NCBI GenBank assembly: GCA_012719455.1
Contig: JAAYAJ010000066.1
Coordinates: forward strand, 1-38,149
Direction: 5' to 3'
Origin: Acidobacteriota bacterium
GTDB taxonomy: Bacteria > Acidobacteriota > UBA6911
Length of the DNA: 38,149 bases
The notes beneath the pieces are model-generated. The model had not been told where the DNA came from, searched no databases, and worked only from the letters and a program-made list of their open reading frames with translations. Positions 8,494 through 13,455 of this stretch are shown here, piece after piece. The number at the start of each line of letters is the position of its first letter. The stretch's first letter is position 1. Made by a program: the position numbers and the translations under genes.

Positions 8494-8528
8494 ATAAGGG
8501 CGGCTGTTGAGGCCGCCCTTATCTTTTT
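8494..8528. terminator. Intrinsic-terminator-like hairpin
   Basis: A perfect 11-base-pair stem (8494-8504 with 8512-8522) with a 7-base loop. On the plus strand it is followed by CTTTTT. On the minus strand it lies about 25 bases past the stop of the Yip1-like gene but has only a weak T tract (TTATTAAA). It most likely ends the peptide/ABC operon transcribed from the right, and works better in the plus direction. No plus-strand gene is seen immediately upstream. Confidence 0.7.
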
Positions 8529-8546
8529 GTGGTGCGCCAGGCACGA

Positions 8547-9239
8547 TCATCGTATATAGGCCGGCGCGATCACCATCCCCCCTACATAGATCCCCCAGGG
8601 CAGGACAACGGCGAGGGCCGCGCCGGCCCTGGACAGGCCGGGGCAGACCCGGACCAGTCCTGCGACCAGCAGGGTCATTCCCAGCAGGGTGATGGCATCC
8701 AGGGAGGCGAGGGCTTTCAGCGCCGCCGGCGAAGAGGGGTGGAAGAAGAACGCCGGGTTGGTTGCCAGGGGATTGCCCAGGTCGAACCGGGCCGGGTCGG
8801 CGATCAGGGTGACCGCCAGCACCTTCAGTCCCTCCCTGATCGCGACCGTCAACAGCCAGACGTGGGCTACTACGGCCAGGACCCTTTTCCACGCGATGTC
8901 GCGCCCGAGGAGGGTGAGCATCAGCCAGAAGACCGTGGCTGTCATGAAGGCGGTCACGAAGGGGCCGGTGAAAGCGGTTGCCGCCTGGAAGGCATGGATC
9001 CCGGCTTGGTGGGCCAGCACGTTTTCCCTCATCCCCTCGGCATCGAGGAGGGCCCCGCCGGCCGTGGCGGCCTCCACGAGGCGCATCAGCCCGACCCGCC
9101 GCAGGACATAGAGATTCGAGGCCGCCGCGGCAACCGCTGCGGCCAGGAGGGGGAGGAGCCACCGGGGACGGTGCCGGAGGGAGTCCAGGGTGTCCAGCGG
9201 GTGCACGAACATGGACCAGCAGGATCGGGTTTCGGGCAT
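8547..9239 (-). CDS. Yip1-family-like membrane protein
   Basis: A 230-residue polytopic membrane protein with about five hydrophobic segments. The N-terminal layout (SMFVHPLDTLDSLRHRPRWLLPLLAAA), the central AFMTATVFWLMLTLLG and the 'AWKRVLAVVAHVWLL' region resemble bacterial Yip1-domain proteins, which have no settled function. AAAAGGAG precedes the ATG. It is the last gene of the minus-strand unit containing the two secreted peptides and the ABC transporter, 50 bases after the ATPase stop. A part in immunity or transport for that system is possible but only inferred from position. Confidence 0.65.
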   Translation of the reverse strand: MPETRSCWSMFVHPLDTLDSLRHRPRWLLPLLAAAVAAAASNLYVLRRVGLMRLVEAATAGGALLDAEGMRENVLAHQAGIHAFQAATAFTGPFVTAFMTATVFWLMLTLLGRDIAWKRVLAVVAHVWLLTVAIREGLKVLAVTLIADPARFDLGNPLATNPAFFFHPSSPAALKALASLDAITLLGMTLLVAGLVRVCPGLSRAGAALAVVLPWGIYVGGMVIAPAYIR

Positions 9240-9288
9240 GATTGTTCTCCTTTTGGATGGATGCGGGGGACGACAGCGCGGTGTGGGA

Positions 9289-10062
9289 TCATATCCAGGA
9301 GAGCTCTCGCTCGCCCGGCCCCCCCGCCACTTCCCACAGCGCCGATTCGAGCGCCGGAGGGGGAGACGGCATGTTCGCCGCGGCGTCAGGGGCGTGCCTG
9401 ATTTCGCGCTGCAGCAAACCCTCGTGAAGGATCCCCACCCGGTGGCACAGCCGCTCCATGCGCCCCATGTCGTGGGACGACAGGATGAGGGTGCGCCCGC
9501 CCCCGGCCATCCGCCGGAACAGGCCGAGCAGGCGGAAGATGGCCGCCGGATCGAGGCCCAGGAAGGGCTCGTCGAGCAGGCAGACCGCCGGAGCGTGGAT
9601 CAGCGCGCAGCAGAGGGAGAGCTTCTGCTTCATTCCGAGGGAATAGCTGCCGATGATCCGGTCAGCTGCGGCGCCGATCTCCATCAGCTCCAGGAGATCT
9701 TCCGTGCGCCGGGCGATCTCCATGCGGCCCAGCCGGTAGAGCCTCCCGCAGGCCGTCAGGATCTCCCGGCCGGTCAGGTAATCCAGCAGCGGGAATTGCG
9801 GTGAGGCGAAGCCCGTCAGCGCCGCCGTCCTGCCATCCCCGGGTCGGACCTCCACCCCTCCGATCCAGGCTGTCCCGGAAGAGGGGCGGACGAGGCCCGC
9901 CAGCAAGGCGAGCGTCGTTGTCTTGCCCGCCCCGTTGGGGCCGATGAGGCCGTAGATCTCCCCCTTGCGGACTTCCAGGGTCAATTCCCCCAGGGCGCGC
10001 GTTTTCCCGTAGGTCTTGCCCAGGGTGACAGTCTTTACGATTATGTCCATAGTCAGAACCAT
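9289..10062 (-). CDS. ABC transporter ATP-binding protein (peptide operon)
   Basis: A 257-residue ABC ATPase with all standard motifs: Walker A GPNGAGKTT (residues 41-49), Q-loop near ASPQFP (87-91), signature YSLGMKQ (140-146), Walker B CLLDEP (161-166) and the H-loop His of SSHD (197). The signature LGMKQ is typical of ABC-2-type exporters for drugs or peptides. The start at 10062 overlaps the permease stop by 10 bases; MDIIV at 10050 is an alternative. It pairs with the permease at 10053-11516. In this operon, export of, or self-protection against, the small peptides is the natural inference. Confidence 0.9.
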   Translation of the reverse strand: MVLTMDIIVKTVTLGKTYGKTRALGELTLEVRKGEIYGLIGPNGAGKTTTLALLAGLVRPSSGTAWIGGVEVRPGDGRTAALTGFASPQFPLLDYLTGREILTACGRLYRLGRMEIARRTEDLLELMEIGAAADRIIGSYSLGMKQKLSLCCALIHAPAVCLLDEPFLGLDPAAIFRLLGLFRRMAGGGRTLILSSHDMGRMERLCHRVGILHEGLLQREIRHAPDAAANMPSPPPALESALWEVAGGPGERELSWI

Positions 10063-11516
10063 GCAAGTCTTCTTAAAAAATTATCGATATCCCCCGCCAG
10101 GGTGCGGCGGACCCAGCCCCTGAGGAGCGAGGCGCGCACGGCGGCCAGCCCCAGCGGCAGCGCCGTCCAGACCGCGGCGCGGAGAAGAGGGGGAAGGGTT
10201 CGCTCGACCAGGGAGGAAGCGGCGAGGAAGAGAAGCAGGAACCCCAGTTGCAGCAATCCCACCACCAGCGCCCCGGCGGTGGCTCCCCCGTCGAACTGGG
10301 AAGTCCGGTCGATCGATTCGGGATGGCGGACCGTGAAATACCAGCCGCACATTCCACCGAAAAGGATGCCTGAAACCGCATAGCTAAGGATTCGGACCCA
10401 GTCCGACGGCGCCATGCCTGTGCTCCCCTTTAGGATTCCGGCTGCGAAGAGGCATGCGATCATCCCCCCCTGGAGAAAGTCGAGGCTCAAGCTCCGGGCG
10501 CTGAGCGCCCGCTCCACCGGCAGCGGGAAACGGTAGTGGATCCAGGCGCCGTCGCGGTCGATCCCGAAGAGATTCGCCCGGAGGTAGGAGTGAAAGAAGA
10601 GGTTCAGGAAGGAGAAGGAGAGGAAATAGCCGGCATCCGGCGAAGTGCTGAACCAAGTCCAGCAAAAGCTGAAGCCGCTTCCCCAGAGGAAGAGCATCAG
10701 GGCGCCCCGGTAGCGCAGCCAGCCGAAGACCCCGGTCCAGAAGAGCGGCCCGGGCCAGGCCGGGTGGGGGAACGGTGCGCCTCCGCCGCCGGCATGGGCG
10801 CGGGGGAGGGCGCCGTAGTGCAGCCGTTGCTCTACCATGAAATCCGTGCTTCCCAGCAGTATGACCCAGGCCAGCATCAGCGCCAGCGGGAGGAGGGGAT
10901 CGGGGGAGGCGAGGGCCCGGCCGAACAGGCGGCCCGGGTGCAGCGGAAAGGACCCGGGCGCCGCATGGTCCAGGATGACGGCCGCGGCCGCAAGGGACAG
11001 GGTGACGGCGGCGGCCGCCCGCTCCCGGCGCCCCAGGGCGCCGAAGCGCCCGATGATGTTCCGCAGGAGCGACGCCCCCAGGCGGACCGAGGCGACAAAC
11101 AGCAGGTATCCCGCCGCCGCGGTCGTCACTGCCAGCGCGGGATCGGGCGCGCGCGGGGTGCGGCACAGCGCCAGGCCGAGGCCCGCGAGGATGGGGAGGC
11201 TCAAAAACCCCAGCAGGAAGGTGTGGAGATAGAGGTCAATGAAGCGGGGTGAGGTGAAGACGCGCAGGCGGTCGCGGCTGATGCGCCAGGAGAAGTCGCG
11301 GCCGGTCACGGCCCCGAGCAGGAGCCACGAGATCCAGGCAGCCGCGGTCAGTTCCTCCCAGCGAGCGGAGGGGATGGGGCGCACCGGGAGGAGGGAGCCG
11401 GCGCTCCAGGCGAGCAGGCAGAGAGCGGTCCCCGCGCCCAGCCAGCCCATCCAGCCGCGACCGTGGCGCAAGCGGCGAGCCCTTTCCTTGAGCAGCAGTG
11501 CTGTCATTCCGATCAT
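10053..11516 (-). CDS. ABC transporter permease (peptide operon)
   Basis: A 487-residue membrane protein with roughly ten or more hydrophobic helices (for example WMGWLGAGTALCLLAWSAG, FLLGFLSLPILAGLGLAL, LGFLLLFLAASSL), the size and layout of an ABC exporter permease rather than a short ABC-2 protein. I prefer the ATG at 11516 (MIGMTALLLKERARR) because GGAGGA lies upstream and the 73 codons before it read as high-G+C non-coding sequence. It overlaps the ATPase gene. It is separated from the upstream peptide gene by about 100 bases holding two strong hairpins. No close named family is recognised. Confidence 0.78.
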   Translation of the reverse strand: MIGMTALLLKERARRLRHGRGWMGWLGAGTALCLLAWSAGSLLPVRPIPSARWEELTAAAWISWLLLGAVTGRDFSWRISRDRLRVFTSPRFIDLYLHTFLLGFLSLPILAGLGLALCRTPRAPDPALAVTTAAAGYLLFVASVRLGASLLRNIIGRFGALGRRERAAAAVTLSLAAAAVILDHAAPGSFPLHPGRLFGRALASPDPLLPLALMLAWVILLGSTDFMVEQRLHYGALPRAHAGGGGAPFPHPAWPGPLFWTGVFGWLRYRGALMLFLWGSGFSFCWTWFSTSPDAGYFLSFSFLNLFFHSYLRANLFGIDRDGAWIHYRFPLPVERALSARSLSLDFLQGGMIACLFAAGILKGSTGMAPSDWVRILSYAVSGILFGGMCGWYFTVRHPESIDRTSQFDGGATAGALVVGLLQLGFLLLFLAASSLVERTLPPLLRAAVWTALPLGLAAVRASLLRGWVRRTLAGDIDNFLRRLAWF

Positions 11517-11533
11517 GGGCCGGTGTCCTCCGG

Positions 11534-11605
11534 GCCGGCCGTCCGCGCGGGGCGGCCGGCATCCCCGCTCCCGGCCCGGACCCGCCGGCGGTTCCGGGCC
11601 GGGAG
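11534..11605 (-). repeat. Two perfect hairpins between peptide 2 and the ABC permease
   Basis: Hairpin 1, met first on the minus strand, pairs 11594-11605 with 11568-11579: 12 perfect G/C-rich base pairs and a 14-base loop, starting 12 bases after the peptide stop. Hairpin 2 pairs 11553-11560 with 11534-11541: 8 perfect pairs. Neither has a U tract, so they look like attenuators or mRNA-stabilising structures that would favour peptide over transporter expression rather than full terminators. Confidence 0.65.
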
Positions 11606-11617
11606 GGATATGTGCGA

Positions 11618-11860
11618 TCAGCAGGCCATGACGTCCATGACCTTTACGGCGAGGCCCACTCCGGCGCACCAGACACAGCCGCAAAGGGCGGCTACGCCCA
11701 TGCCGACGGCGAATCCGTCGAGAAAGCCGTTGCACACCGTCAATCCTCCCATGGCGGCGTCAGCCGGCGCTCCGGACGCCGCGGGGCCGAGGCCCTGGGC
11801 CACGGTCGCGGTCAGGCAGAGCACGACGATCAAGAGCACGGACACCTGTTTTCTTTCCAT
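11618..11860 (-). CDS. Secreted Cys/Gly-rich small peptide precursor, peptide 2 (bacteriocin-like)
   Basis: An 80-residue precursor. Residues 1-23 form a Sec-like signal (MERKQ, then a hydrophobic core, ending VAQG). A short Ala/Gly/Pro linker leads to AAMGG (35-39), a double-glycine-type junction. The rest is a 41-residue Gly-rich hydrophobic segment with Cys at 43, 60, 62, 65 and 80 (the C-terminal residue). GCAGGAG precedes the ATG at 11860; an upstream in-frame ATG at 11977 gives an unlikely leader. It is paralogous in layout to the peptide encoded at 12017-12262. I infer that a nearby C39-type protease cleaves after MGG and that the thioredoxin-like protein handles the cysteines. Activity as a bacteriocin or signal is unproven. 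Confidence 0.7.
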   Translation of the reverse strand: MERKQVSVLLIVVLCLTATVAQGLGPAASGAPADAAMGGLTVCNGFLDGFAVGMGVAALCGCVWCAGVGLAVKVMDVMAC

Positions 11861-11885
11861 TTCGGGTTCTCCTGCAGTTTTGCGA

Positions 11886-12005
11886 TTATGGGTGAAAATA
11901 GTCCCCGGCCAGGTCGTACAGGGCCCACAGAGCGGCGGCGATGCCGCCCAAGCGGAGGACGATCTTCCAGAGTTCACGGTTCGGGGTCAAAGTGCGGCTT
12001 TTCAC
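11886..12005 (-). CDS. 39-residue single-helix membrane peptide, GTG start
   Basis: A short frame with GTG at 12005, preceded by GAGGGGGAGCC, a good ribosome-binding site. It begins MKSRTLTPNRELWKIVLRLG, continues into a hydrophobic helix (GGIAAALWALYDLAG) and ends DYFHP. It lies exactly between the two Cys-rich peptide genes, 11 bases after one and 25 before the next, on the same strand. It has one predicted transmembrane segment, a basic N-terminus and no cysteine. Small membrane proteins next to bacteriocin genes are often immunity proteins, and that is my tentative inference. It could also be a third peptide or an untranslated gap. Confidence 0.5.
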   Translation of the reverse strand: MKSRTLTPNRELWKIVLRLGGIAAALWALYDLAGDYFHP

Positions 12006-12016
12006 GGCTCCCCCTC

Positions 12017-12262
12017 TCAGCAGTTTTCCAGCGTCGGCAGCACGAGCCATGCCCCCGTGGCGCACAGCACGCCGCAGGGGGTGAAGGCCCCGAGCAGGAG
12101 GCCTCCGAACAACCCCCAGCGTCCGTCGCAGTTCCCTCCCATGACCGCCTCTTCTGCATTCGGGCCGAGCTCCTGTCCCACGGCGTCGGGCGGGACACCG
12201 CCGGCGCTCAGGGCCAGCAACATGGTCAGAAGCAGAGCGGTCGTGGCCTGTTTAATATTCAT
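12017..12262 (-). CDS. Secreted Cys/Gly-rich small peptide precursor, peptide 1 (bacteriocin-like)
   Basis: An 81-residue precursor starting at the ATG at 12262, directly after a strong ribosome-binding site (TAAGGAGAGAACCC). It has a signal-like hydrophobic stretch (residues 6-21), a polar linker (GVPPDAVGQELGPNAEEA), a double-glycine-type junction VMGG (40-43), then a 38-residue Gly-rich segment with Cys at 45, 63, 67 and 81 (last residue). Compared with peptide 2, both have AxMGG, an early C-[D/N]-G, a CGxxC-A region and a C-terminal Cys. The frame is continuous with the upstream C39-like protease, so a fusion product is formally possible, but the ribosome-binding site and signal-like start argue for separate translation. 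Confidence 0.68.
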   Translation of the reverse strand: MNIKQATTALLLTMLLALSAGGVPPDAVGQELGPNAEEAVMGGNCDGRWGLFGGLLLGAFTPCGVLCATGAWLVLPTLENC

Positions 12263-12901
12263 GGGTTCTCTCCTTACGTCGACCCATCGGGCCGAACGTG
12301 AACGGTTTTCATAATCTCCCTTACCCTTGCAGGGGGGAGTCCAGGCCGGATCGAAGATGAGGGTTTCCCCGGACCAGATCCTGCGGAATGCGTGAGCCGG
12401 CCAACGTAATCTACCCAACGCCGGGTCGTCCACCTCCAGAACCTGCGGCGCCGCGAGGCGCCGGATGACCACGAAGTGGTTTTTTCGGATAAAGGCGATG
12501 GCTGGGAGCGGGACGTTCGCCAGGTCCTCCGGTGACAGGACCCAGGAGCGGCCGGGGAGGCCGAGCCGGGCGGCGACCGCCCGGAGGCGGCCGAGAGACG
12601 TGCCCCGCCCGGTGAGCCCTACCTCTTCCGAGAGCGCCTTGAGGGGGCGCTCGATGCCATGGGCGTCGAGCACCATCTTCAGGGCCGCCGGCCCGCAGTC
12701 GTTGCGCCGCGTCTGCATCACCGCCGCGTCGGCGGCGACCAGGGTCGCGCCCGCGCTCCAGGCCCGTACCCGCTTCAGGAGGTCGGGCCGCTCGAGGATA
12801 CGGGACGAGGCCGCCGGGAGGCTCGAGACCGCCGCCAGCACCGCCAGGGCGCAAAGGATCGAACCGTGCTTCTTCAGCTTCCGCGTGTCCATGCGCTTCA
12901 C
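12263..12901 (-). CDS. Membrane-anchored C39-type (double-glycine) peptidase; no stop before peptide 1
   Basis: This C39-like cysteine protease has an N-terminal signal anchor (about residues 11-31) and then the catalytic domain. Q63 (oxyanion), C69 in RRNDCGPAAL, H142 in KNHFVVI and D158/D159 in EVDDPALG form the expected C39 triad. C39 proteases cleave leaders after double-glycine motifs, and two such precursors are encoded downstream. Unlike classical systems the domain is not fused to an ABC exporter and appears to face outward. GTG at 12901 overlaps the stop of the redoxin gene; ATG at 12892 is an alternative. The reading frame has no stop before peptide 1 and runs on to 12017, adding a low-complexity KGKGDYENRSRSARW linker. 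I end the entry at the peptide start, but the literal frame is 12017-12901. Confidence 0.75.
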
Positions 12902-13455
12902 GACCTTCCCGGGGGCGGTCCGCCCGCCGCGAAGCGCTCGAGCCTTTCCCGTACGAACGCCCGGCTGCGCCTGCCCGTGATCCCGCTCTCCAGGATCCCC
13001 TTTTCATCCACGAAGAGAATGGTCGGCAGCGCGATGAAGGTGCGCGAAAATGCGCCATGCCTGTCCCAGTAGATCCCCGGCGGGACGCCGCCCGCGGCGC
13101 GCGCTTCCTCCTTTTCGCTTCGAACGAGGACCAGCCGGAGTTCCGGGGGGAACGGGTCGAGCGCAGGCATCATTTCCCGGCACACACCACAGGAGCGAGA
13201 ATGAAACACGACTACCGACCGTTTCCCCCGGATGAGGTCCGCCAGCTGGACGTCGACGCCGTCCCGGTTGACGACCAGGGGAGGGAGGGGCTGCTTGAGG
13301 CGTGCCGGCGGCCGGCGGGCGGCCGGCCGGATCTCGGCCTGGAGGAGGTAGCCGGCGGCGACAATGCCCGCCGCGAGGGCCGCTCCCGCCAGGAGGCGCC
13401 GCATCCACGCCGCCGCTTTCCCCCTTCCCGGACTCCCCGCTCGCGCACGCCCCAT
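12898..13455 (-). CDS. Membrane-anchored thioredoxin-like (TlpA/redoxin) protein
   Basis: A 185-residue protein with a basic N-terminus, one signal-anchor helix (about residues 19-38) and a thioredoxin-fold domain with the active site SCGVC (C89, C92), later FIALPTILFVDEKG, where IALPT supplies the cis-proline. This is the TlpA/ResA-like arrangement of periplasmic disulfide oxidoreductases. GGGGGGAAGACATC precedes the ATG. It is the first gene of the minus-strand unit and overlaps the C39-like protease start. Since the two peptides have conserved cysteines, setting or proofreading their disulfides is a reasonable inference. Confidence 0.82.
   Translation of the reverse strand: MGRARAGSPGRGKAAAWMRRLLAGAALAAGIVAAGYLLQAEIRPAARRPPARLKQPLPPLVVNRDGVDVQLADLIRGKRSVVVFHSRSCGVCREMMPALDPFPPELRLVLVRSEKEEARAAGGVPPGIYWDRHGAFSRTFIALPTILFVDEKGILESGITGRRSRAFVRERLERFAAGGPPPGRS

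Follow-up and report, generated by a model that had tools for sequence, protein, structure and literature searches.

A conserved acidobacterial operon predicted to mature double-glycine peptides outside the inner membrane

The window analyzed here is a contig of 38,149 nt (JAAYAJ010000066.1, assembly GCA_012719455.1) from a 2.8-Mb draft genome, 97% complete, of an Acidobacteriota bacterium of the UBA6911 lineage. A single operon on its minus strand, running from 13455 to 8547, encodes two small precursors in which a Sec-like signal is followed by a double-glycine leader, together with a stand-alone C39 peptidase predicted to face outward, a redoxin, ABC proteins and a Yip1-family protein. Taken as a whole, the operon is probably best explained as a toxin system whose peptides would be exported by Sec, oxidized and cut by C39 outside the inner membrane, with the ABC and Yip1 proteins clearing them or exporting them onward. 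On balance, and with somewhat less assurance, we also see in it a distinct route by which double-glycine peptides mature, and in its products a new class of secreted toxic peptides made by Acidobacteriota, among them sponge symbionts, and by other bacteria. All eight genes that a preliminary description had listed on one strand were found:

12898–13455, minus strand: membrane-anchored, thioredoxin-like redoxin with a CGVC motif (PF00578, E=3e-6, just over the cut-off)
12263–12901, minus strand: stand-alone C39 peptidase anchored in the membrane at its N-terminus, with a predicted outward orientation (PF03412, E=2e-26)
12017–12262, minus strand: precursor 1, 81 residues, with homologues in the related genomes G007, G011 and G043
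11886–12005, minus strand: 39-residue single-span membrane peptide, conserved in G007 and G011
11618–11860, minus strand: precursor 2, 80 residues, with homologues in G007 and G043
10053–11516, minus strand: polytopic membrane protein, probable ABC permease
9289–10062, minus strand: ABC ATPase, DrrA/NodI-like (PF00005, E=1.5e-24; TIGR01188, E=8e-55, below its cut-off)
8547–9239, minus strand: Yip1-family membrane protein (PF04893, E=6e-7, over the cut-off), weakly YknW-like (NF052650, E=3e-9)
8494–8522, plus strand: strong hairpin with a T tract, just past the Yip1 stop codon

Precursor 1 begins with a Sec-like signal and continues into a leader ending in AVMGG; its predicted mature peptide has 38 residues (12017–12133 with the stop codon) and cysteines at positions 2, 20, 24 and 38. 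Precursor 2 likewise carries a Sec-like signal, with an AAMGG junction and a predicted mature peptide of 41 residues (11618–11743 with the stop codon) whose cysteines lie at 4, 21, 23, 26 and 41. With two disulfides in each mature peptide, the computed masses are 3932.89 and 4045.86 Da. Hydropathy and charge were the basis for assigning Sec signals and topology. Small frames with good start sites between the C39 and permease genes have a Sec-like N-terminus, in a list that was selected for such a segment. Many of the relatives' precursors then show a textbook double-glycine leader 45 to 67 residues into the chain, after the Sec-like segment; it is hydrophobic at positions −12, −7 and −4 and ends in GG, GA or GT (for example LSDEELAAVSGG). 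C39 proteases bind the hydrophobic residues at these three positions and require a leader of this form, its end included (PMC10885120).

The association of the two signals was also found in an unselected test, in which leaders were sought by motif alone and hydrophobicity was not asked for. A hydrophobic N-terminal segment precedes the leader in all nine system precursors identified in this way and in none of 25 leader peptides near ordinary C39-ABC exporters (p=1.9e-8), some of the nine sharing a genome and so not being fully independent. In the ordinary neighborhoods, the end of the leader usually lies 15 to 34 residues into the precursor. Of 33 precursors, 17 have a looser leader motif in the pro-region, where shuffles would give 1.1; pro-regions alone were used, since Gly/Ala-rich cores match the motif by chance and make a test over whole precursors weak.

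The predicted mature peptides across loci are mostly 38 to 59 residues long and Gly/Ala-rich, with a cysteine close to each end. Precursors of the window's type have four conserved cysteines, with a central CxxxC or CxxC, a plan that would fit a hairpin stabilized by two disulfides. There are one to three precursors per locus, and they diverge quickly. When 24 precursors were scanned, no two of them matched the same family, and in the Pfam and NCBIfam scans the window's two precursors and its membrane peptide had no match. No precursor exceeded the cut-off of a curated bacteriocin family; the best match was that of one relative's precursor to Bacteriocin_IIc (PF10439, E=0.0017), with 18.7 bits, below the cut-off of 27.1. 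In a sponge-associated genus (L042, L044, L046, L047 and L156–L165), a further Sec-signal peptide lies directly after C39; it is Pro-rich (for example ...PWPCDDDPFGPIFILIPLGPTTGPFDPTQCLPFPWPFP), mostly has two to four cysteines, and is without a double-glycine leader.

The C39 peptidase has the expected fold and catalytic residues. The alignment shows no variation at Gln63, Cys69, His142 and Asp159, and the structure model is confident, mostly with a predicted local distance difference test score (pLDDT) above 90. Its best structural match is the LahT protease–leader complex (6mpz), followed by the protease domain of PCAT1. When C39 was modeled in its natural frame with precursor 1, the precursor part had mostly pLDDT below 60 and docking of the leader was not readable. 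In nearly all loci the N-terminal hydrophobic segment of C39 has more Lys/Arg before it than after it; given this conserved anchor with positive-inside charge, the active site is predicted to lie outside the inner membrane. No other protein of the window's genome matches PF03412, and hence no ordinary double-glycine exporter, and no C39-ABC fusion, was found there.

The preliminary description had staked its proposal on conservation of the gene set and on the small frames being translated, and the proposal survived this test. Gene order is kept in all three relatives: G007 carries the whole operon at 69–86% identity, small frames included; G011, a genus-mate, has it up to the end of its contig; and G043, from another class of the phylum, has the whole operon with both precursors and a small transmembrane peptide. 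Precursor 1 is 69–77% identical in G007 and G011, precursor 2 is 83% identical in G007, and both have homologues in G043. For the membrane peptide the identity is 79–84% in G007 and G011, and a 30-residue counterpart lies at the same place in G043; its start codon is GTG in the window and ATG in the relatives. Against G007 and G011, the two precursors have ratios of nonsynonymous to synonymous substitution rates (dN/dS) of 0.43–0.68, and most other genes lie below 0.5; the values for the 39-codon membrane peptide, 0.29 and 0.79, come from too few sites to judge. A comparison of C39 with L009 fell in the wrong frame and was left out of account. Judged by sequence comparison, the small frames are conserved proteins, beyond chance, and the selective constraint on the small peptides is of moderate strength.

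C39 was searched in the host order, the phylum and another class. At the cut-offs used, 6 of 15 genomes matched in the order, 22 of 396 in the phylum and 24 of 149 in the other class. A scan of the C39 alignment over one genome per species (84,980 species) gave at least 80 loci. The best 12 of these (L053–L064) have a stand-alone C39, directly preceded by a redoxin in all but L056, and most of the redoxin-bearing ones with a long enough contig also carry the ATPase and Yip1. Eleven are acidobacterial and one (L055) belongs to Ignavibacteriales. The other 68 among the matches listed are mostly ordinary C39-ABC fusions and show no redoxin or Yip1 match; the stand-alone C39 frames L066, L073 and L106, which have neither redoxin nor anchor, were set aside. 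By these matches the system, whole or almost whole, is spread over the same genus, other classes of Acidobacteriota including the sponge-associated genus, and at least one Ignavibacteriales genome. A profile check placed a CxxC redoxin beside C39 in 31 of 35 system-type loci, many of them from that one sponge-associated genus. C39 is without a recognized redoxin nearby in L041 (6450–7397), L045 and L048; in L041 a precursor with a canonical leader (LTEAEMVDIVGA) still follows C39. In L012 (6008–7983), from another genus of the family, redoxin, C39 and Yip1 adjoin, and neither a precursor nor an ABC gene was seen. Two or three Yip1-like genes stand in tandem in L156, L160, L161 and L162, perhaps one per peptide.

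In the mechanism that we favor, the precursors would cross the inner membrane by Sec through the N-terminal signal, which would then be removed by signal peptidase or kept as a tether. Outside the membrane, the redoxin would form or rearrange disulfides between the cysteines near both ends and the central CxxC or CxxxC. The anchored C39 would recognize the double-glycine leader that follows the signal and cut after GG, releasing the peptides of 38 and 41 residues. The two hydrophobic, disulfide-stabilized peptides may then act as a two-component bacteriocin or as an SDP-like membrane toxin. We infer such a role from the leader type, the composition of the cores, the sub-threshold Bacteriocin_IIc match and the analogy to SDP. 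The ABC permease and ATPase with Yip1 would clear the peptides from the producer's membrane; this immunity role is the least certain step, and onward transport by the ABC system is an alternative.

Two known groups of peptides resemble this scheme. SDP of Bacillus is a hydrophobic peptide of 42 residues with one disulfide, secreted via a signal sequence and processed after secretion, and protection against it comes from YknWXYZ, whose YknW component belongs to the Yip1 family (PMC6818787, PMC4887032). The operon would share with SDP/SdpC, the YIT toxins and YknWXYZ a Sec signal, a hydrophobic disulfide peptide, and a Yip1 protein with an ABC transporter. It differs in having two peptides and in using a double-glycine leader and C39 instead of SdpA/SdpB, no such family being named in the scans of the operon; no YknX-like membrane-fusion gene is present in the operon. 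Class IIb and Blp-type class IIc bacteriocins have paired small peptides, Gly-rich hydrophobic cores and a GG leader as well. The class II leader pattern (hydrophobic at −12, −7 and −4, with a GG, GA, GS or GT end) is present in many relatives and degenerate in the window. Those bacteriocins, however, are without Sec signals and have C39-ABC exporters, whereas maturation in the operon is predicted to take place outside the inner membrane.

Several points weigh against the proposed mechanism. The Sec signals are predicted from hydropathy. In the window itself both leaders are degenerate at −7, and that of precursor 2 also at −12; the canonical leader reading therefore rests on the relatives. 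The mature peptides are neutral, whereas many bacteriocins are cationic. Redoxins of the TlpA/ResA type are often reductants. Four of the 35 loci have C39 without a recognized redoxin, and no precursor is visible in L012. The YknW match of the Yip1 protein (36.7 bits) is far below the curated cut-off of 110. Nevertheless, the arrangement put forward in the preliminary description, a Sec-type N-terminus and a double-glycine leader with an outward-facing C39, gains support from the canonical leaders of the relatives and the conserved anchor of C39.

The same route through Sec and C39 could also serve peptides that are signals, or structural or envelope peptides such as amyloid-like subunits or a small membrane complex, an alternative that is unlikely but deserves some weight. 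FapD of Pseudomonas is a Sec-exported periplasmic C39 protease that serves amyloid secretion, and the targets of periplasmic C39 proteases were called uncharacterized in that work (PMC5557850). FapD thus resembles the operon's enzyme as a C39 peptidase working outside the inner membrane and is a precedent for an outward-facing C39. The two precursors are also paralogous in layout, and the precursor scans gave no annotated family. However, no Fap genes were named in the Pfam and NCBIfam scans of the operon, with neither a Fap-type pore nor a repeat subunit among its proteins, and the FapD profile gave C39 26.3 bits against a cut-off of 330. Substrates of the system carry canonical leaders, as seen in the relatives; Fap proteins are said to lack them. 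The leaders are of the class II bacteriocin type, as are the Gly/Ala-rich cores, and the quick divergence of the precursors, with one to three per locus, also speaks for toxins.

It is improbable that the N-terminal segment is an anchor only, with the peptides moved by the ABC permease and ATPase rather than by Sec and trimmed by C39 on the cytoplasmic face. Ordinary double-glycine peptides do leave through ABC exporters, and the operon contains an ABC permease and ATPase. The C39 fold and catalytic residues are those of the PCAT/AMS systems (LahT, ComA, PCAT1), as are the relatives' leaders with their hydrophobic positions and GG, GA or GT ends. In contrast to those systems, the operon's C39 is unfused to a transporter, in the window being in frame only with precursor 1, and has its own anchor with positive-inside charge, and its precursors carry a Sec-like signal before the leader, a segment seen in none of the 25 ordinary leader peptides. 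Cytoplasmic trimming would also leave the redoxin without a place to act. That the operon serves redox functions or cytochrome maturation with the help of a housekeeping protease, the small frames being incidental, is very improbable: TlpA/ResA-type redoxins are common envelope proteins, but precursors with C39-type leaders and a common cysteine plan follow C39 in nearly all loci, and in relatives the C39 stop codon overlaps the precursor start.

Three features of the window depart from the preliminary description. C39 and precursor 1, listed there separately, form one open frame of 294 codons (12017–12901), because two single bases found in the C39 tail of both G007 and G011, where the overlap of stop and start reads ATGA, are missing from the window. 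The two losses may be real or may reflect faulty assembly; precursor 1 retains its own start and ribosome-binding site in spite of the shared frame. The hairpin at 8494–8522 had been called terminator-like, but its T tract is on the plus strand and it is therefore not a terminator in the direction of the operon; terminator-like sites in the region are no more numerous than in shuffles. Helices, a partner ATPase and conservation (82% identity in G007, 31% in G043) are the grounds for calling the membrane protein at 10053–11516 a permease; no Pfam family matched it above the cut-off. Its structure model is helical, of low confidence and too poor for a fold search.

In the open-licence papers searched, no description was found of a Sec signal and a double-glycine leader combined with an outward-facing C39. 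Its parts are known, and the lack of a description is not proof of novelty. Papers on Xanthomonas Ax21, Treponema and bacterial defensins concern different systems.

The usual view places double-glycine leaders and C39 peptidases in cytoplasmic processing coupled to ABC export, apart from Sec. The presence of both signals in one precursor, together with a peptidase predicted to face outward, would move leader removal to the side of the membrane where disulfides form. The operon thereby offers clear candidate substrates for a periplasmic C39, and the exact masses of the two predicted peptides make the proposal directly testable. Genome mining keyed to C39-ABC fusions would miss such operons.

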